NCBI RefSeq assembly: GCF_003075415.1 | Contig: NZ_QDAH01000032.1 | Location: 1-64,000 of the forward strand | Reading direction: 5' to 3' | From: Microvirga sp. KLBC 81 | GTDB lineage: Bacteria > Pseudomonadota > Alphaproteobacteria > Rhizobiales > Beijerinckiaceae | Length of the DNA: 64,000 bases | Part shown: piece after piece, positions 10,080 to 62,428 of the stretch | How the letters are laid out: each line of letters begins with the position of its first letter | Numbering within the stretch: position 1 is the stretch's first letter | The notes under the pieces: generated by a model | Database searches by the model: none | Told to the model about the DNA's origin: nothing | The model's input: only the letters and a program-made list of their open reading frames with translations | Made by a program: the position numbers and the translations under genes

Positions 10080-10316
10080 TCAGAGCGCCCGCCGAATGCG
10101 CGTATAGGCGTCTTTCAGCTCGGAGGCGAGGATCTTCAAGGCATCGCCCACATCCCTGGTGCTCTTGTCAAGCTCAGCCCTGCTCTCGAAGGAACTCCAA
10201 CGCTGCTCGAGTTCGGACCACTCGTCCTGCACCTCTCTCGAGCCGAGATGGATCTTCAGCCGGATCTCATCACGGGTGCGCTTGAGGTCCTCGGCGAGTT
10301 TTACGAGATCCGGCAT
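10080..10316 (-). CDS. Small helical protein, first gene of a three-gene set
   Basis: This 78-aa protein of unknown function starts MPDLVKLAEDLKRTRDEIRLKI. ATG 10316 has GAGGGA upstream; the frame is open to 10415 but the extra residues have no support. The whole sequence is predicted to be amphipathic helix with heptad-like spacing and no cysteine, signal or membrane segment. A soluble coiled-coil partner of the two downstream membrane proteins is the simplest reading, but this is inference. A promoter should lie in 10317-10455. Confidence 0.7.
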   Translation of the reverse strand: MPDLVKLAEDLKRTRDEIRLKIHLGSREVQDEWSELEQRWSSFESRAELDKSTRDVGDALKILASELKDAYTRIRRAL

Positions 10317-10455
10317 GGTTCTGTTCCCTCTCAAAAGCAGACGAACGGCAGGCCCAATGAGCAACTTGAAGCCCTTGTACCCGGCTCCAACACAAGCAGC
10401 CTTGATCTTCATCAAGTATGGCCAAGCTGCAGGTCGCTCTGCACTTTGGAGAACA

Positions 10456-10810
10456 ATTTTCCTGCGATATCAGCGATGTAACACAATCCACTCTCTGGCC
10501 GGAGAGCAGACAAGGCGTGGGAAGTTCGGTAGGTTCTGGTCAACAACACCGTAGGGGCAGAACAATGAAACCTGACATGGACCTGATTGGCGCGCTCACC
10601 AGCTTCTCGGTTGGCACGCTCGATGGCCGCGATGCGATGATGGTGATCGAGATGGCCACCACGCTGGAGGAGTACGAGCGCGGCGTGCGCCGGCAGCTGC
10701 CGGTGGCGATGACGCCCGAGCATGCGCGCGAGCTCGGCGAGGCGCTGCTCCTGGCCGCCAAGGCCGCGCTGATGGGCGACACTCCCTCCTACGCCGTCAA
10801 CTGAAGCAGC
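10456..10810 (+). repeat. 355-bp direct repeat, copy 1 (carries a 79-aa ORF)
   Basis: This segment recurs at 13374-13728. By eye the two copies differ at 2 positions, both in the 109-bp upstream part; the 240-bp ORF is identical. The repeat begins at ATTTTCCTGC and ends 6 nt after the ORF stop. No flanking target duplication and no terminal inverted repeats were found, so it does not look like an insertion sequence. Confidence 0.93.
10565..10804 (+). CDS. Duplicated 79-aa protein of unknown function, copy 1
   Basis: The protein starts MKPDMDLIGALTSFSVGTLDG and is identical in sequence to the product of 13483-13722. ATG 10565 has GTAGGGGCAG upstream. The protein is mostly helical, Met- and Leu-rich and slightly acidic, with no signal peptide, membrane segment, or cysteine. 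A central MTPEHARELGEALLLAAKAAL helix ends in a GDTPSYAVN tail. I do not recognise the family. Complete identity at the DNA level points to recent duplication or gene conversion. A strong terminator follows. Confidence 0.75.
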   Translation: MKPDMDLIGALTSFSVGTLDGRDAMMVIEMATTLEEYERGVRRQLPVAMTPEHARELGEALLLAAKAALMGDTPSYAVN

Positions 10811-10890
10811 AGCTTCTCCTTGAAGCTCCGCTGCGAGATGTTAGATGACGTTACGGCATGGTTTTGCGGCAACAATCCTACGCTCATCGG

Positions 10891-10921
10891 AATATTTTGC
10901 TGCACCGCAAAATATTTTTTT
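10891..10921 (+). terminator. Rho-independent terminator after copy 1 of the duplicated gene
   Basis: A perfect 10-bp stem (AATATTTTGC at 10891-10900 and GCAAAATATT at 10907-10916) closes a 6-nt loop and is followed by five T. It is outside the repeated unit, so copy 2 does not share it. The surrounding 10811-10985 is AT-rich and should also hold the promoter of the downstream esterase gene. Confidence 0.8.
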
Positions 10922-10985
10922 GCATTGCAACGAGAGCTTCTTTAAAGCGTTATCTGACATTCAGCAGTCCTGAAGGATAAGCCTG

Positions 10986-12155
10986 ATGCAGCGCCTAGGA
11001 AGCATGATCCACCAATTGGCTCGCTACCGGAGGCAATGGGAAGGATTGATGAAGGCCTCGGCCGAGAGCGCAGCCTCGCTGGAGCCTTCCTCGACGGCTC
11101 CGAGCCGCCTGACGGAAACGCAAAATTTCGGCCCTAACCCCGGCAATCTGCGCATGTTCACCTATGCGCCGCCGGAGATCGGCGCCTCCCCCGCCCTCGT
11201 CGTGGTTCTCCACGGCTGCACACAGAGCGCTGCGGGCTATGATTACGGCTCCGGATGGTCGGTTCTGGCCGAGCGTTACGGCTTTGTCGTGCTCTTCCCC
11301 GAGCAGCAGGATGCAAATAACCCGAAACGCTGCTTCAACTGGTTCCAAGCCGGGGACATCGAACGCGACAGCGGCGAAGCCGCCTCGATCCGCCAGATGG
11401 TGGAGCGCGCCGTTCGCGATCACGGCGTTGATCGTGACCGCATTTACGTAACCGGACTGTCGGCCGGCGGCGCCATGACGGCGACCATGCTGGCCGCTTA
11501 CCCAGAGGTTTTCGCCGGCGGGGCCATCATCGCCGGCCTTCCCTATCGATGCGCCACGAGCGTCTCGGAAGCGTTCGAGTGCATGTTTCAAGGGCAGACA
11601 CGCCCGGCCGAGGAATGGGGCGATCTGGTACGCCAGGCCTCTCCGCATCGCGGGCCCTGGCCCAAGGTGTCCGTCTGGCATGGCAGCGCCGATGCCACCG
11701 TGAAGCCCCTCAATGCAGGCGAGATCATCAAGCAATGGACGAATGTCCATGGCTTGTCGGCGGCTTCCAGCAGGAACGAAACCGTGGATGGTTATCCGCG
11801 TCGCGTCTGGACGAACGATGTCGGCGAGGAAGTGGTCGAGGAATACGTCATCACCGGCATGGCCCATGGCACGCCGCTCGCCACGGGCGATGGCGAGAAC
11901 AATTACGGCGTTGCAGGCCCGTTCCTGCTCGAAGCCGGGATCTCATCGAGCTATCACATCGCGCGGTTTTGGGGCCTCACCGGGCGCGGTGCATCGAAGA
12001 AGTCTGCAAGCACCACGCCGAGACCTACTTCAATCGAAAAGACTTCGCCATCAACCACCGCTTCGCAGGAGCGCAGGAAGCAAGCGCCTGTCTCCATCCC
12101 GGATGTCGGCGCTATCATTACAAGAGCGTTGAGGGCTGCCGGCCTCATGCGCTGA
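10986..12155 (+). CDS. PHB depolymerase-family esterase (intracellular)
   Basis: This 389-aa alpha/beta hydrolase is of the esterase_phb (PHB depolymerase/LpqC) family. Visible parts are the oxyanion LHGCTQ (75-80), nucleophile elbow GLSAGG (157-162, Ser159), probable acid Asp236 (HGSADATV) and base His294 (GMAHG). CFNWF and RDSGEAASI are also family-typical. No signal peptide is seen, so it is probably cytoplasmic; the Ser/Thr/Pro-rich stretch (335-370) before the last helix looks disordered. It may act on polyhydroxyalkanoate oligomers or other esters. ATG 10986 has AAGGA upstream. It converges with the next gene, 6 nt away. Confidence 0.87.
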   Translation: MQRLGSMIHQLARYRRQWEGLMKASAESAASLEPSSTAPSRLTETQNFGPNPGNLRMFTYAPPEIGASPALVVVLHGCTQSAAGYDYGSGWSVLAERYGFVVLFPEQQDANNPKRCFNWFQAGDIERDSGEAASIRQMVERAVRDHGVDRDRIYVTGLSAGGAMTATMLAAYPEVFAGGAIIAGLPYRCATSVSEAFECMFQGQTRPAEEWGDLVRQASPHRGPWPKVSVWHGSADATVKPLNAGEIIKQWTNVHGLSAASSRNETVDGYPRRVWTNDVGEEVVEEYVITGMAHGTPLATGDGENNYGVAGPFLLEAGISSSYHIARFWGLTGRGASKKSASTTPRPTSIEKTSPSTTASQERRKQAPVSIPDVGAIITRALRAAGLMR

Positions 12156-12161
12156 AGGCAC

Positions 12162-12968
12162 TCACGGGCCTTTCTTGACGCTGAGATCGTCTTCGCTTTT
12201 CTTCTCGCCAGTCACGCAATTCATACGCGACTGAGCCGGAAGGACTTGTGGAGGCCGATCCTCACGCCCGGCGATCTCGCGCATGATCTTGGTGCGAATG
12301 ACCATGGCGAATTGCTCCGAGTCGTGCAGAGGGATCACGAAGGATCCGACGCCGCCGATGACGCATTCCCGATAATACACGTCCAGCCCGTCCATCTCGG
12401 GGCTGTTCGAGGCTCGCCCGAACATGATCGGCAAGCCATTGATCGTGATGCTTTCCGCGATCGCCTCATCCCGCGCGAGTTCAACCTTGCGCCCATCATT
12501 GTTGGGACCATCCCCCGAGATATCGATGACTCGGCGCGCCGAGATTCTGCCGAGATCCGTGAACAGATTGCGGCTGAAGTCGATCACCCCGGAGATCGAC
12601 GTCATGCCTGCTTGGCGTATCGGCTTGCTGGCGAGATGGTTGGAGAAGGCATTCGCTTTCTCCGGACCATCGATGACTGTCCAGGGAACGAGCACCACCT
12701 GATCCTTGGCCCCAGACCACTCGACATAGGTTACGGCGATCCGGCCTGCTACGCCGTTCTGGATGGCCTCATGAACAGCCGAGGATCGAAAGGCCTCCAC
12801 GAAGCCTGTGCGCTGCAGGCCTTGTTCCTCCGCTTCCATCGAGGAGGACACGTCAACAGCGATGACGAGAGCCAAATCGAGCGGAGGCTCAGCGGAGGCT
12901 GGCGCTCCTCCGAGAAAGCCGCCCGCGAGAATAAGGCACGCGAGAGTACACCAGAAACGACGAAGCAT
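12162..12968 (-). CDS. Secreted VWA-domain protein (DUF1194)
   Basis: This 268-aa protein has a signal peptide ending in APASA (residue 26), followed by a von Willebrand factor A domain. The MIDAS motif is DVSSS (Asp39, Ser41, Ser43), and SISGVIDFS and ISGDGPNNDG are typical DUF1194 blocks, the second giving the later metal-contact residues. Members of DUF1194 are periplasmic alphaproteobacterial proteins with no settled role; metal-dependent protein binding is the expected activity. It is a single gene with its own upstream region (12969 onward). Confidence 0.85.
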   Translation of the reverse strand: MLRRFWCTLACLILAGGFLGGAPASAEPPLDLALVIAVDVSSSMEAEEQGLQRTGFVEAFRSSAVHEAIQNGVAGRIAVTYVEWSGAKDQVVLVPWTVIDGPEKANAFSNHLASKPIRQAGMTSISGVIDFSRNLFTDLGRISARRVIDISGDGPNNDGRKVELARDEAIAESITINGLPIMFGRASNSPEMDGLDVYYRECVIGGVGSFVIPLHDSEQFAMVIRTKIMREIAGREDRPPQVLPAQSRMNCVTGEKKSEDDLSVKKGP

Positions 12969-13373
12969 GACGACCTCCGTCTCTGCCCTCGGTCAGTTGA
13001 CCAACGCCCAAGTTACCTCTTTCTCAACGCACCAAGCTGGACTTTGATACGCTGAGCCGCGCATAAAAAGCTGAACCTCTTCTCAATGAGCCGGAGAAGT
13101 CACCTGCCGAACGGATGCTCAGGCAGAGCCTCAGGGACGAACTTGTCCTTTAAAGGGCAATGGGAGCATGGGGCCCGGCAAGCTGCCATCGAGGCCTCCA
13201 CGAAGAGAACACTGCTACTATGATGGCATTCGCGCTGGAGCCTTTTTCGGTGAAGCGGCTCCGGTTCACCATCAAAAAATGCGGCCCGGCAAACAAGAGG
13301 GCTGATTCCAGGCCAACGGAAACAGCTCTACTTCGTGATTTCACAATTGCGCAGGGCCTGAGCCTGGCTGGCG
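12969..13373. other. 405-bp intergenic stretch before repeat copy 2
   Basis: No convincing gene was found here. A 79-codon plus-strand frame from 13160 runs into the repeated unit and lacks a ribosome binding site. The left part should contain the promoter of the divergent DUF1194 gene. No hairpin with a T-run, transposase remnant or tRNA was seen. Confidence 0.6.
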
Positions 13374-13728
13374 ATTTTCCTGCAATATCAGCGATGTAAC
13401 ACAATCCACTCTCTGGCCGGAGAGCAGACAGGGCGTGGGAAGTTCGGTAGGTTCTGGTCAACAACACCGTAGGGGCAGAACAATGAAACCTGACATGGAC
13501 CTGATTGGCGCGCTCACCAGCTTCTCGGTTGGCACGCTCGATGGCCGCGATGCGATGATGGTGATCGAGATGGCCACCACGCTGGAGGAGTACGAGCGCG
13601 GCGTGCGCCGGCAGCTGCCGGTGGCGATGACGCCCGAGCATGCGCGCGAGCTCGGCGAGGCGCTGCTCCTGGCCGCCAAGGCCGCGCTGATGGGCGACAC
13701 TCCCTCCTACGCCGTCAACTGAAGCAGC
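13374..13728 (+). repeat. 355-bp direct repeat, copy 2 (carries a 79-aa ORF)
   Basis: This is the second copy of the unit at 10456-10810, in the same orientation, offset 2918 bp. The two differences seen are CGATAT versus CAATAT and ACAAGG versus ACAGGG in the leader. Flanking sequences on both sides are unrelated to those of copy 1. Confidence 0.93.
13483..13722 (+). CDS. Duplicated 79-aa protein of unknown function, copy 2
   Basis: This ORF is identical to 10565-10804 at DNA and protein level, including the Shine-Dalgarno sequence GTAGGGGCAG. The two genes therefore share at least 109 bp of upstream DNA and probably their regulation; CTCTCTGGCCGGAGAG in that leader is a small hairpin or operator-like dyad. 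Copy 2 is followed by a palindromic repeat element in place of the terminator of copy 1. Function is unknown. Confidence 0.75.
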   Translation: MKPDMDLIGALTSFSVGTLDGRDAMMVIEMATTLEEYERGVRRQLPVAMTPEHARELGEALLLAAKAALMGDTPSYAVN

Positions 13729-13789: not shown

Positions 13790-14539
13790 TCATCGGCAGG
13801 CGCGATACGTGCCCATGTCGAAATGGAAGTGATCACGATGGGCCCCGTTGTAATCGGGGCTGAGCACGACGTCGAAGAGCCCGCAGGCGCCATCCCGGAT
13901 GTCCCGCAGAAAAGCCGCGCGGCGGGGATCTCTTCCCGTCCAGTCGCTTCTCACCGTGATCTGCTGTCCATCGGCCAGCACGAAGCCGGCGAGATCAATA
14001 GCATTGGCGGTCGCATGTTCGCTGCGCCGGCCTTCAGTGCGGTGGTTGATGTTGCGACAGGCGTAAGTGCCGAAGCGGACGACGCGCACCACATCCTGTC
14101 CGAGATGCCTGCGAGCCGCCGGTCCGACGACGTGGCGGTCAAAGAGCGCCCAGGCCACTGCCAGAGAACATGAAGCCGTAAAGCTCCGGCTCAAGGCGCG
14201 CGAAGCCTCCGTCACCTCGACGGCATTGGACAAGCCGCAGCCATCCCTGTCCGTACGATCCGAAGCGGGTCTGTAGGAAACATCCGACTCCGCCAACACT
14301 CGAAGGCATTGCGGCCCGTTCCTCTCGAGACGCGAGAGCTTTATCCGGGTCAGCCAGTTCACCTCATCCGCCACCTGCAGGGGCGCGAAGGGATCAAGAT
14401 GGCTCGGAACGACGATGACTCTGCCCCAGACCAGTCCCGCCAGGATCGCAAGCCCAAGTGCAGCAGTGAGGGCGAGCCGGCCCAGAATGGTCGGGAGAAG
14501 TCTCGTACGCCGACGCGTCGGAAAAAGTTCATCCTGCAC
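13790..14539 (-). CDS. Extensin-like family protein (membrane-anchored, LAS/MepA-like fold)
   Basis: This 249-aa protein has an N-terminal membrane anchor (about 22-44) and an extensin-like C-terminal domain (about 70-249). Conserved blocks are CGLSNAV, SCSLAVAWALF, SEHATANAIDLAGF (His175, Asp182) and HRDHFHFD (His237, His239). This metal-ligand pattern resembles D-Ala-D-Ala carboxypeptidase/MepA enzymes, so peptidoglycan cleavage in the periplasm is plausible. The name 'extensin' comes from a plant domain and is misleading. The start is GTG 14539; no in-frame ATG fits better. Confidence 0.85.
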   Translation of the reverse strand: MQDELFPTRRRTRLLPTILGRLALTAALGLAILAGLVWGRVIVVPSHLDPFAPLQVADEVNWLTRIKLSRLERNGPQCLRVLAESDVSYRPASDRTDRDGCGLSNAVEVTEASRALSRSFTASCSLAVAWALFDRHVVGPAARRHLGQDVVRVVRFGTYACRNINHRTEGRRSEHATANAIDLAGFVLADGQQITVRSDWTGRDPRRAAFLRDIRDGACGLFDVVLSPDYNGAHRDHFHFDMGTYRACR

Positions 14540-22785: not shown

Positions 22786-25700
22786 CAAGCCTTGAGTCTG
22801 TTGAACCTCGAAAGGTCACGAGCCCGAAGCGCTCCCTTACCCTGCTGACGCTCCGCAAGATCGCGATCCGCATCAGCCTCGTCGTCGCGGCCGCTACGAT
22901 CATGAGCTACTGGCACGTGAAGACGGGCTTCGAGCAGCAGGCCGTTGAGAACCTTGAGCGGTATGTCGAACAGAGGCGCGTTCGTGAAAGCGCGATCTTC
23001 GACCTCGCCAGCAGCAATATTCGTACATTCTCGGATGCCTATCTGCGCGAGATCAGCCAGATGGACCCGCAGGGAGCGGAGCAGCGCTTTGCAAGCCTGT
23101 TCGAGCAGCATCCCGACGGAACCACGCGGCTGACGGAAAATGTCTTCAAGACCTATGGCGTCACAGGCTTCATCGGCAAGCACGTGATGATCGAGCGGGA
23201 TCTCAAGCGGCGACTTGTCGTCGCCTTCGATCTGATCACGCAATTCGGCCCTGCGTGGAAAAGCCAGTTCGCCAATCTCTATGTGATGACGCCGGAAGGC
23301 GCCGTCATCATGTACTGGCCGGATCAGCCCTGGGCTTTGCGTGCGGGGGATTGGGAGATCTCGGGCAAGCTGAATCTGCTCTCCGACAACAAGGACGACG
23401 TGCTCGTCGCGAACACCGGCTCGATCGCCGACTCTGCCAAGGAGCGCTGGTCCGAACTCTACTTCGACTATGGTATCAACGATTGGCTCGTATCGGTCAC
23501 CCGCCCGGCTCTTCTGGACGGACGCCCGGCCATCCAGATCGGCCAGGATATCCTCGTCCATGACCTGATCGGCCGCGCCGTCAGCACGGATCTGGGCGGC
23601 ACATATAACATCCTCTTCTCCGAAGAAGGAAGGATCATCGCCCATCCCCGCTTCATGGATGCCATCCAGGCACGCAGCGGCTCCTTGCCGATTTCCGAAA
23701 CCGGTGACCCCAAACTTGAGAAAATTCACCGATTGACGCTGGAGCGTTCTCCGCAGCAGACCGTCATTCGTGACCAAAGCGACAATCAGGTGATTGCCGT
23801 CACGAAGCTCAGCGGTCCGGCCTGGACCCTGGCTACGGTCTATCCTCTGGATCTTGCATCCGAGAGCGCGTGGCAGACGGCTCGCCTTATTCTCCTCATG
23901 GGCGCCCTGGCGCTGATTCTCGAAATCGCAATCTTAAGCTCGACGCTCAGGAGCCAGATTGCCGTTCCATTGCGTCTCCTGGTGCGTGCCACGAGCTCTG
24001 TCGCCAAGGGAGAGTTCAAGACACACCTCAATCTTCGCCGCGATGACGAAATCGGCGAGCTGGCGGACGCTTTCACCACCATGGCCCGGCAGATCGACGC
24101 CCGTGAATCAGCGCTGAACGAGCGCAGCGCGAGCCTCGCCAAGCTCAATGACGAATTGGCCCACGAGCTTGCGGAGCGTGAGAAAGCCGAACGGGAGCTG
24201 GCGCGCCACCGGGAGCTCAATGCGCTGCTCGATACCATCGATTACGGCATTCTGTTCTTGAGCCCCGACCTGAAGATCCGCCTCGCCAACCGGGCCTACA
24301 AGGAAATGTGGGCCGTGCCCGAGGCGCAGATCGCCAAGGGAACACCAATCCGCAACGTGGTTGCCCATCACAGCCAGGCCCTCGGCATCGAACACGAGTA
24401 CGAAGACGCCTTCATCGAGCGCAACATGGAGGATATCCGACGCTGCGATCAGGCTCCGATCGAGATCCAGTCCCCGAACAACCGTGTGCTCCGCTACCAT
24501 TGCGTCGCCCTGCCGGATGGCGGACGCATGCTCACCTATGTGGATATCACCGAGCAGAAGCGGGCCCTCGATGCCATCGCGCTCGCCGAGCAGCGCCAGC
24601 GACGCCTTCTGGAACTGGCGCCCTTCCCGCTGGTCGTGACCCGGATGTCGGACGGGCGGATTCTGTATGCCAATGCCCGCACGGCAGAGGCCATCGGCCT
24701 CAAACCCGAGGAGTTGCGGGGAACGCCCGCGCCGAACTATTACGCAAACCCGACGGATCGCGAGCGCATCCTCAAGATTCTATCGCAGGAAGGCCGCGTT
24801 CAGGACGTGGAAGTTCTCCTTCAGCGCCACGACGGCAAGCAGTTCTGGGCCTTGGTGAACGCGAGCTTCGCCGATTATGAATCCACCCCTGCCCTTCTGT
24901 TCGCCTTCAACGACATCACCGAGTTGAAACAGAGGGAAGCGCAGCTCAAGCAGGCCAAGAAGGAAACCGAAGCGGCGTTGCGCGACCTCAACGCCGTTCT
25001 CGACACCATTCAGTACGGCATCCTGTTTCTCGACCCCGATTTTCGCATCCGCCTCGCCAACCGGGCTTATCGCGAGATCTGGGAGATGCCCGCGAGCTAT
25101 TATGAGAAGCCCCGATCCCTGGAAGAGGACATGGAGAAGAGCCGGTCACTCGGCAGCTACGATGTCTCGGATGAAGAATGGGGGGCCTACAAGGCACGAC
25201 GCATCGGCGAGATCAGAAGCGGTGCTCCCGTTATGACCGAGATGCGCCTGAAGAACGGGCGCGTTCTTCAGTACCGTATTATTGCACTGCCGGATGGCGG
25301 GCGCATGCTCACCTATTTCGACATCACCGACATGAAGCGGTTCGAGGATGTCCTGCGCCGCCATCTGGCCGCCATGGAAGCGGCCATGGACGGCATGGCG
25401 ATCCTCGATGCCGACTATCGCTACCAGTACCTCAACGAAGCTCATCTGAAGATCTTCGGCTATGACCGCCCGGAGGAGCTTGTCGGGAAAAGCTGGAAGC
25501 AGCTCTACACGGACGAGGAGCGCGCATATTTGGAGGCCGTCGCCTTCCCCAAGGTCTTCCAGGACGGTCACTGGAACGGCGAGGCTGTGGGCCTGAAGCG
25601 CGACGGCACGCTCTTCCCGCAGGATGTCTCGCTCACCATCATCCAGGACGGCGGGCTCATCTGCGTGGTGCGCGACATCACCGAACGCCATGCCCGCGAC

Positions 25701-31173: not shown

Positions 31174-32243
31174 CGTTCATCCTCCATCTCATGCATGGCG
31201 GCCGGCGACCATGACAGGCGGATCGGCTCGCCAGGACCCAAGCTCCGCACCTCCGACGCAGGCACGAGGGCACAGAGGCGAACGCCCGCGCAATCGGCGA
31301 TCACGCGCCGCATCGCACCCTGGTATTGAACTTCGATGCATGTGCCGTCCGCATGAAGGCGCCCTGGCTCGCTTGCATTCCCGGCGGGACGAACGGCAAT
31401 CGCTTCAGGCCGGAGGCTCACGAGCCTCGAGGGGCCACCGAAGCGTGCGGTCACGGCGGGTTCGAGCACGTTGGAGCCGCCAACAAATTCGGCGACGAAG
31501 CGCATTCGAGGCCGCTCATAGATCTCTTCCGGCGTGCCAACCTGCACGATACGACCTGCATTGAACACGGCCACGCGGTCGCTCATCGAGAGCGCCTCGC
31601 CTTGGTCGTGCGTGACGAAGATGAAGGTAAGGCCGAGGCTGCGCTGCAATGCTTTCAGCTCCACCTGCATCTCCTCTCTCAGCTTCAAGTCGAGCGCGCC
31701 GAGCGGCTCGTCGAGCAGCAGCACCTTGGGGCGGTTGACCAAGGCGCGCGCAAGCGCAACGCGCTGGCGCTGGCCGCCGGAGAGCTGCTGCGGACGACGC
31801 ACGTCGAAGCCGACGAGTTTTACGAGCGCGAGCGCCTCACGTCCGAGCTTCTCCCGTTCCGTGCGCCCCATGCCGCGAATGCGCAGGCCGTAAGTCACGT
31901 TGTCGAGGACGTTCAGATGCGGAAACAGCGCATAATCCTGAAACACCGTGTTCACCGCGCGGCGATAAGGCGGAACACCCGCAACGGGCTCACCGAAGAT
32001 ACTGATCTCACCTGCATCGGGCTGCTCGAATCCGGCGATCAGGCGAAGGCACGTGGTCTTGCCCGAGCCGGAGGGACCCAGCATCGAGAAGAACTCGCCG
32101 ACATGGATGTCGAGATCGAGCCCATCGACAGCCCGCACGGCGCCGAAGTGGCGGGCGACGCCGTTGAAGCGCACGGCGTGAGCCGGTGCAGGCGCAAGGG
32201 ATTGAGCCGCAATGGTGTCTTGCGGACGCGTGTGAACGGACAT
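31170..32243 (-). CDS. Polyamine-type ABC transporter ATPase, PotA/YdcT-like
   Basis: This 357-aa ATPase has Walker A GPSGSGKTT (56-64), the [14 protein letters not shown] signature, Walker B VLLLDEP and the switch FVTHDQGEAL. A C-terminal TOBE-type domain follows (about 270-357: LRPEAIAVRP). The open frame to 32342 is cut back to ATG 32243 (MSVHTRPQD), because the additional Arg-rich leader is not family-like. It powers the PotBC-like channel. Its gene follows the binding-protein gene by 88 nt. Confidence 0.88.
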   Translation of the reverse strand: MSVHTRPQDTIAAQSLAPAPAHAVRFNGVARHFGAVRAVDGLDLDIHVGEFFSMLGPSGSGKTTCLRLIAGFEQPDAGEISIFGEPVAGVPPYRRAVNTVFQDYALFPHLNVLDNVTYGLRIRGMGRTEREKLGREALALVKLVGFDVRRPQQLSGGQRQRVALARALVNRPKVLLLDEPLGALDLKLREEMQVELKALQRSLGLTFIFVTHDQGEALSMSDRVAVFNAGRIVQVGTPEEIYERPRMRFVAEFVGGSNVLEPAVTARFGGPSRLVSLRPEAIAVRPAGNASEPGRLHADGTCIEVQYQGAMRRVIADCAGVRLCALVPASEVRSLGPGEPIRLSWSPAAMHEMEDER

Positions 32244-37978: not shown

Positions 37979-38030
37979 GAGCATCGGATCGACTCCCAAA
38001 AGTGCAGATCCACTTTTGGGTCCGATGCTC
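37979..38030. repeat. Palindromic intergenic repeat, GAGCATCGGA/CCCAAAAGTG type (copy 1)
   Basis: The arms are GAGCATCGGA plus CCCAAAAGTG on the left, interrupted by TCGACT, and CACTTTTGGG plus TCCGATGCTC on the right. The loop is CAGATC. A second copy is at 62104-62154. It lies between two convergent genes and its last base is part of the stop codon of the crotonase-like gene, so it may serve both as terminator. Confidence 0.85.
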
Positions 38031-38830
38031 TAGCGCCCCTTCCACACGGGCTTACGTTTTCCGATGAACGCATCGATGCCCTCGGCCGCGTCCTCGGCCA
38101 TCATGTTGCAGGCCATCACCTGGCCTGCGAAAGAATAGGCCTCTTCCAGGCTCATGCTGCGCTGCCGCCCGAACATCGCCTTTCCGGTACGGATCGCGAC
38201 AGGGCTCTTCGAGCAGATGGCCGACGTCAGCGAGGCGACGGCCGCATCGAGTTCGGCATCCGGCGCGACGCGGTTGATCAAGCCGTAGGACAGCGCCTCG
38301 GCGGCCGAAATGAAGCGTCCCGTCACGAGCATCTCGAAGGCCTGCTTGGGTGCGACATTTCGCGAAAGAGCCACCGCCGGCGTGGAGCAGAAAAGGCCGA
38401 CATTGATGCCGGAGACGGCGAAGGTCGCGCTCTCGGCCGCGACCGCGAGATCGCAGGACGCGACCAGCTGGCACCCGGCTGCCGTCGCCATGCCGTGCAC
38501 GCGGGCGATCACAGGAGCGGGCAGATTCACGATGCTCTGCATGACCCGGCCGCACCGCTGGAACAGAACCTCGTAATATTCCTGGCGCGGATTGGAGCGC
38601 ATCTGCTTGAGGTCGTGTCCTGCGCAGAAGGCCTTGCCCGCGGCAGCAATCACCACGCAGCGCACACTCTCATCGGCGGCAAGCTCGTCCAGGCTTTGCT
38701 GCAACGCCTGCAGCATTTCCTCCGACAGCGCATTGTACTGGCCGGGCCGGTTCAGCATCAGGGTCGCGACCCCTTCCCGGTCCTCGCGGATCAGAATGGG
38801 CTCTTCGGGGATAGTCTGCTGCGCGCTCAT
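38030..38830 (-). CDS. Enoyl-CoA hydratase-family protein, ECHDC3-like (catalytic glutamates missing)
   Basis: This 266-aa crotonase-fold protein has FCAGHDLKQM (68-77) for the first oxyanion position and GMATAAGCQLVASCDLAVAA for the second. The two glutamates needed for enoyl-CoA hydration are replaced: the first aligns with Gln121 and the second with Gly141 (in AVSGINVGLFCSTP). The same replacement and the GLFCSTP block occur in human ECHDC3-type proteins. It may catalyse another CoA reaction or act without hydratase activity. ATG 38830 has GGAGAG upstream. It is convergent with the acyl-CoA ligase gene. Confidence 0.83.
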   Translation of the reverse strand: MSAQQTIPEEPILIREDREGVATLMLNRPGQYNALSEEMLQALQQSLDELAADESVRCVVIAAAGKAFCAGHDLKQMRSNPRQEYYEVLFQRCGRVMQSIVNLPAPVIARVHGMATAAGCQLVASCDLAVAAESATFAVSGINVGLFCSTPAVALSRNVAPKQAFEMLVTGRFISAAEALSYGLINRVAPDAELDAAVASLTSAICSKSPVAIRTGKAMFGRQRSMSLEEAYSFAGQVMACNMMAEDAAEGIDAFIGKRKPVWKGR

Positions 38831-44559: not shown

Positions 44560-45630
<1,071 letters not shown>

Positions 45631-62103: not shown

Positions 62104-62154
62104 GAGCATCGGATCAATCCCAAAACTGCAAGTCCACTTTTGGGTCCGATGCTC
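62104..62154. repeat. Palindromic intergenic repeat, GAGCATCGGA/CCCAAAAGTG type (copy 2)
   Basis: The arms are GAGCATCGGA, TCAAT, CCCAAAACTG on the left and CACTTTTGGG, TCCGATGCTC on the right, with loop CAAGTC. It is the same family as 37979-38030; the left-arm insertion is 5 nt here and 6 nt there. Dispersed copies in one window suggest a genome-wide repeat. Confidence 0.85.
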
Positions 62155-62428
62155 TAGAAGATTGTTCGGAACAGGCGAGCGGTAGCCATGTGACTTCGCA
62201 AGCGTCTATGAGCTCGGAAGGCTTTTTTAACTGAAGAAACTTGCTTCTCTCTAGTGTGCAACATATCAAACGTGGAACGCAACAGTGTTCAGAACACTGT
62301 TTGACCCTTCTCCACGTTGCCGGAAAGCCTCAGTTCGAGAAAACGATTTCACAACGGCTCGTCGCTTATAGCTTAACTCTACAAGTCGTGCGACGATGCC
62401 TTCCTCATCCATAAGGTTCCTTAAAGGA

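Follow-up and report, generated by a model that had tools for sequence, protein, structure and literature searches.

Concerted evolution of a paired 79-aa gene in Microvirga, very probably through repeated gene conversion

The window analysed here is a 64,000-nucleotide stretch of contig C32 of the Microvirga sp. KLBC 81 assembly, a 6.86-Mb draft in 357 contigs with 6.63% contamination. When the window was compared with itself at an offset of 2918, two direct copies of a 355-bp unit were found on the + strand, at 10456-10810 (site 1) and 13374-13728 (site 2), 2918 bp apart. The units differ only at 10466 and 10513, both in the leader, and their open reading frames (10565-10804, open with a stop codon, and 13483-13722, both +) show 0 differences over 237 positions and encode identical 79-aa products. 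This confirmed the two mismatches in 355 positions and the unchanged ORF reported in the initial annotation. Each unit holds a whole gene: the ORF with its ribosome-binding site, preceded by a -10-like TA and by a palindrome overlapping a plausible -35 element. No inverted repeat 20 nt or longer in the window links one end of the unit to the other, and no target duplication was seen by eye beside either copy; within these limits, the earlier claim that terminal repeats and a target duplication are absent was upheld. A DNA search of the KLBC 81 assembly reported two places for the unit, the same two copies in the window. No direct repeat found in the window is longer or more alike than this pair; second to it comes one of 155 nt, 73% alike (31645-31799 and 45092-45246). 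This repeat and another of 112 nt at 71% (24210-24321 and 24981-25092) are perhaps paralogous coding stretches. Separately, a dispersed 40-nt repeat (37994-38033 and 62118-62157, 93% alike) carries the 20-nt core TCCACTTTTGGGTCCGATGC, found at 223 places in the KLBC 81 genome with up to 2 mismatches (0 for the reversed control) and partly arranged in head-to-head pairs; by these features, it is a REP-like family.

Site 1 lies between a small 111-aa ORF (10080-10415, - strand) and the gene of a PHB-depolymerase family esterase (10986-12155, +; PF10503, E 7.5e-30; NF050058, E 4.4e-105). A gene for a DUF1194 protein (12162-12968, -; PF06707, E 6.9e-70) follows between the copies, and an Extensin-like C-terminus protein is encoded to the right of site 2 (13790-14539, -; PF06904, E 1.6e-59). 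In the gap separating site 1 from the depolymerase gene, the stretch TTTTTTGCATTGCAACG (10895-10935) recurs in several relatives and presumably resembles the sites of PhaR-type PHB regulators.

The leader contains an imperfect palindrome, ATCCACTCT-N8-AGAGCAGAC (10486-10511 and 13404-13429, +), which we propose as an operator. In an alignment of 38 leaders, the block from GTAACA through ATCCACTCT-N8-AGAGCAGAC was conserved above the rest of the leader. The 26-nt pattern occurred, with at most 2 mismatches, at 61 places in 48 Microvirga genomes. By hand count, 54 of these were just upstream of the gene (45 without mismatch and 9 with one), and the 7 found elsewhere, with 1 or 2 mismatches, equalled the number obtained with a reversed control pattern. 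The mismatch-free palindrome was found only in front of the 79-aa gene in these 48 genomes. The 26-nt pattern had no occurrence at all in three of the genomes, two of them lacking the gene and the third, M. pudoricolor (G002), carrying a variant. A scan of the family allowing up to 1 mismatch matched 23 of 298 genomes, all of them Microvirga (1 of 43 genera). The right end of the palindrome, CAGACA, resembles a -35 element and would form, with TAGGTT 17 bp downstream, a putative promoter (10507-10535, with CAGACA at 10507-10512 and TAGGTT at 10530-10535, and 13425-13453, +). Across 55 leaders, the spacing from CAGACA to the best -10-like hexamer was 17 in 36, 18 in 14, 19 in 4 and 16 in 1, on a hexamer score of our own that favours a spacing of 17, and the expected ungapped -10 position showed T in 42 and A in 46. 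A probable ribosome-binding site, AGGGG, was read at 10553-10557 and 13471-13475 (+). We infer that the leader combines promoter and operator, and that a dimeric regulator probably binds the palindrome overlapping the -35 element. The possibility that the leader acts as RNA was set aside: the CTCT/AGAG arms offer no covariation by eye because they are nearly invariant, and no Rfam family reached its gathering score in the leader, the best hit near the gene being SECIS_3 (18.5 bits against 63).

No Pfam or NCBIfam model passed its cut-off for the KLBC 81 protein. Nothing in Pfam, NCBIfam or PHROGs reached E 0.001, no PHROG fell below E 0.1, and the best sub-threshold matches were Phage-tail_3 (E 0.027), DUF6324 (E 0.046) and phrog_1546 (E 0.12). 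The gene, described as being of unknown family in the initial annotation, fits no curated family that we searched. Over 32 members, the best family match was Phage-tail_3 (E 0.0047). Membership of DUF6324 (PF19849) was rejected: 18 of the 32 members of alignment A1 resemble the profile weakly over residues 44-68, but the 79-aa protein lies below the curated cut-off (14 bits against 27; best E 0.034 among the 32 members) and the model matched none of the 19 Microvirga genomes searched, KLBC 81 included. No paper on DUF6324 was found. A profile search of PDB sequences gave a best E of 0.22. An AlphaFold2 model from 32 sequences, of moderate confidence (pLDDT 74, pTM 0.51), predicted three strands, two short helices and a C-terminal helix, and fold searches with this pLDDT-74 model returned weak matches (Foldseek best E 0.18; COMMD, Z up to 5.0; PUR repeats, Z 3.7). 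Since the KLBC 81 protein has 12 D/E and 7 K/R residues, DNA binding is not favoured, and autoregulation by the 79-aa protein would be a guess.

The protein was present in 46 of 48 Microvirga genomes, and all 36 named relatives found with it were Microvirga. It was found in none of 24 genomes from other families of the order, and neither the plasmid nor the phage collections held a match. A sample of 149 genomes from the family yielded 11 with a match: 6 belonged to Microvirga, and the other 5, spread over 4 further genera, matched weakly (E 9e-6 to 8.5e-4). The 79-aa protein is nearly genus-wide in Microvirga, and the matches outside the genus are weak. A remote relative, 41% identical over query residues 10-75, is encoded on contig C8 of KLBC 81 itself (G000:C8:100285-100482, L087).

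Within the 48 Microvirga genomes, matched by contig coordinates, nine carried intact copies at both sites: KLBC 81, M. vignae, G036, ACRRW, M. solisilvae, M. pakistanensis, M. roseola, MAG RH59 and M. makkahensis. In a tenth, M. guangxiensis, site 2 was present and site 1 showed a run of N and, after it, the end of the gene (L048 5052-5231), as if the repeat had broken the assembly or been masked. The first 69 nt of this gene end equal its site-2 copy, and a decayed site-1 remnant was dropped as a description of the stretch. Site 2 lies behind the depolymerase gene and, as a rule, the DUF1194 gene, and before the Extensin-like gene. Both loci occupied conserved positions, as expected of concerted evolution, with some variation around site 2: in M. 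roseola, the DUF1194 gene is missing from between the copies, ACRRW, M. solisilvae and M. guangxiensis carry extra DNA before site 2, and for some copies, as in G036, no adjacent Extensin gene was detected. The distance between paired copies ranged from 2.2 to 8.9 kb. Both site-1 neighbours were found at 34 loci, of which 24 lacked the gene and had a gap of 159-325 bp, the gap being 506-775 bp in the other 10, which are the nine two-copy genomes and M. guangxiensis. Most relatives of KLBC 81 carry a single copy; in M. terricola and M. alba, this lies next to the left neighbour of site 1. Two diverged copies (68% and 56%) stand 96 kb apart in G063. In a DbpA tree of 35 rows, eight two-copy genomes and M. 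guangxiensis formed one group with support 100, and M. vignae was nearest to KLBC 81; M. roseola is absent from this tree, having no DbpA in its locus. On the simplest reading, the duplication would be older than the two-copy species. The initial annotation had raised a very recent duplication, and this found no support: both sites are filled in the sister M. vignae, where the flanks are orthologous, as well as in further relatives, and each of these species carries a sequence of its own. It had also held that an old pair common to all relatives would speak for conversion, and this was borne out in part, in one clade and M. roseola, most relatives being single-copy.

The copies grouped by genome, not by site. 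Within genomes, the two ORFs differed at 0 of 237 positions in KLBC 81, M. vignae and MAG RH59, at 1 in G036, M. pakistanensis and M. makkahensis, at 9 in M. solisilvae, at 10 in ACRRW and at 42 in M. roseola, while ORFs at the same site differed between genomes at 8 to 81 of 237. In a 56-row ORF tree, the site label required 9 changes for 9 pairs, the M. roseola pair falling in an unresolved fork. A clade of site-1 copies was rejected in the AU test, both against the site-2 copies (p-AU 4.1e-52) and against all other rows (p-AU 1.1e-12), with 8 pairs included, M. roseola left out and three sets of identical rows left free. By the difference table, the tree and the AU test, paralogues within a genome are closer than orthologues between genomes, as concerted evolution implies, with the M. 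roseola pair standing in that fork. Synonymous divergence (dS) between KLBC 81 and M. vignae was 0.108 in the 79-aa ORF, against 0.185-0.233 for the genes of DbpA, depolymerase and DUF1194, and it was 0 between the two KLBC 81 copies. From the palindrome to the ATG, a gapped alignment of leaders gave 0-2 mismatches within 7 of 9 pairs (10 in M. solisilvae and 19 in M. roseola), and 5-24 mismatches plus indels between KLBC 81 and the other eight species. Constraint alone fails to explain the identity within genomes, because leaders match within pairs and differ between species.

Near-identical pairs that group by genome could also result from a separate recent duplication in each species, in which the site-2 unit was recopied beside the PHB-depolymerase gene, perhaps after loss of site 1; the similarity in M. 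makkahensis, which reaches well upstream of the usual edge, would fit this. Such a history demands, however, repeated insertion into one intergenic gap, and the flanks speak against it. Between KLBC 81 and M. vignae, the one species pair for which flank orthology was assessed by shuffles, site-1 flanks scored 63 and 181 and site-2 flanks 152 and 78, whereas site 1 against site 2 gave 16-18, inside the shuffle range. By this measure, the flanks of the two species are orthologous site by site, at site 1 right up to the unit. The extent of similarity within pairs was variable. Under an ungapped rule of 15 of 20 positions alike, the upstream edge fell at about -95 in KLBC 81, -99 in M. vignae, -93 in G036 and -123 in M. 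makkahensis, at -67 to -75 in ACRRW, M. pakistanensis and MAG RH59, and at the start codon in M. solisilvae. M. roseola copies were alike in the inner part of the ORF only, and the first 20 bases of its site 1 matched M. terricola at 15 of 20 positions and its own site 2 at 10 of 20; by this pattern, M. roseola site 1 is a mosaic. Its reading frame (L054 3716-3900) departs from the common one near the end, so this may be a decaying copy. The pairs of ACRRW, M. solisilvae and M. roseola share the same configuration, differing at the ends and alike in the middle, which separate duplications would not produce. The box TAGTAATATTATCC also links the site-1 leaders of ACRRW and M. roseola to the leader of M. 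terricola, whose sole copy is at the site-1 left neighbour, again at odds with fresh copying from site 2. We therefore consider separate duplications improbable. Variable tracts and mosaics, as found in concerted evolution, are expected of gene conversion and not of fresh duplication, and therefore favour conversion. The leader starts of KLBC 81 and M. vignae resemble the site-2 type of M. solisilvae and M. guangxiensis; therefore, conversion likely ran from site 2 to site 1 in these two genomes. The same comparison of direction in ACRRW was a near tie, at 44 versus 42 of 50. In six pairs, the ORF retains no trace of old site-1 sequence, so that loss of a copy and its replacement by a new one at that position is hard to dismiss.

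A 355-bp repeat exceeds common short reads in length and can be misjoined in short-read drafts, which most of the compared assemblies are, and KLBC 81 is itself a draft of 357 contigs; an assembler could thus have made one copy or the identity of both. Yet the KLBC 81 copies keep two fixed differences, each runs on into unique flanks, and the same arrangement recurs in nine other genomes, G036 with its 2 contigs among them, which makes an artefact highly improbable. Still harder to credit is the unknown mobile cassette that had been suggested for the gene. The unit is compact and brings its own promoter-like leader, but the KLBC 81 genome holds just the two DNA copies, the two-copy genomes share the gene neighbourhood of the pair, the unit edges vary between species, and the plasmid and phage collections gave no match. 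Neither terminal inverted repeats (at least 20 nt) nor varied sites or mobile replicons, as a mobile element would show, were found.

The comparisons established, at the level of sequence, the shared sites, the orthologous flanks (KLBC 81 vs M. vignae), the grouping by genome and the species-specific tract edges. The pattern is one of concerted evolution, for which recurrent gene conversion is the best explanation, and the conversion named among the initial proposals gains support from the shared sites, the grouping and the variable tracts. Very probably, an old duplicated gene at two matching sites has been homogenised by recurrent non-allelic gene conversion. The gene, with its own promoter, would sit at these sites in one Microvirga clade and in M. 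roseola, and homologous recombination between the direct repeats, presumably by the ordinary RecA route, would repeatedly overwrite one copy with the other. Because of this overwriting, the copies would be nearly identical within a genome and different between species. Both promoters would be active, and dosage of the 79-aa protein is suggested as the reason why selection may keep the copies paired and matched. The expectation that regulation is also conserved fits, because the tract includes the conserved promoter-like region. A more specific proposal, which we regard as doubtful, is that the protein is a genus-specific regulator or a dose-critical factor under a private palindrome, perhaps self-controlled, and that conversion of the promoter-gene block keeps both units matched.

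The Microvirga pairs offer a natural gene-conversion series in a bacterium: homogenisation differs in degree among the nine pairs, single-copy relatives can be compared with them, and their tracts span a promoter-like region as well as a gene. They also draw attention to a small, uncharacterised protein whose operator-like element is private to it and strongly conserved. In the portions available to us of the literature on Microvirga gene duplication and small-protein gene conversion, no report of the pair was found. Gene conversion reportedly operates between the rRNA operons of E. coli (PMC8022953), which resemble the present case in being repeats homogenised in one chromosome; those are multi-copy RNA operons, whereas here a two-copy small protein gene is concerned. 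Long-lasting concerted evolution in prokaryotes is described by Wang and Chen (2018, PMC6053082) for tufA/tufB, psbD, the amo genes and mtrA, whose paralogues keep different genomic contexts across species, explained by recurrent gene conversion. As in the Microvirga pair, these paralogues are closer within a genome than between species. According to the same account, they mostly belong to major complexes and pathways and are in most cases more than 500 million years old (PMC6053082), whereas the Microvirga pair is a 79-aa gene of one genus with a promoter-like leader inside the tract. The process is already known, and the Microvirga 79-aa gene pair is a new case of it.
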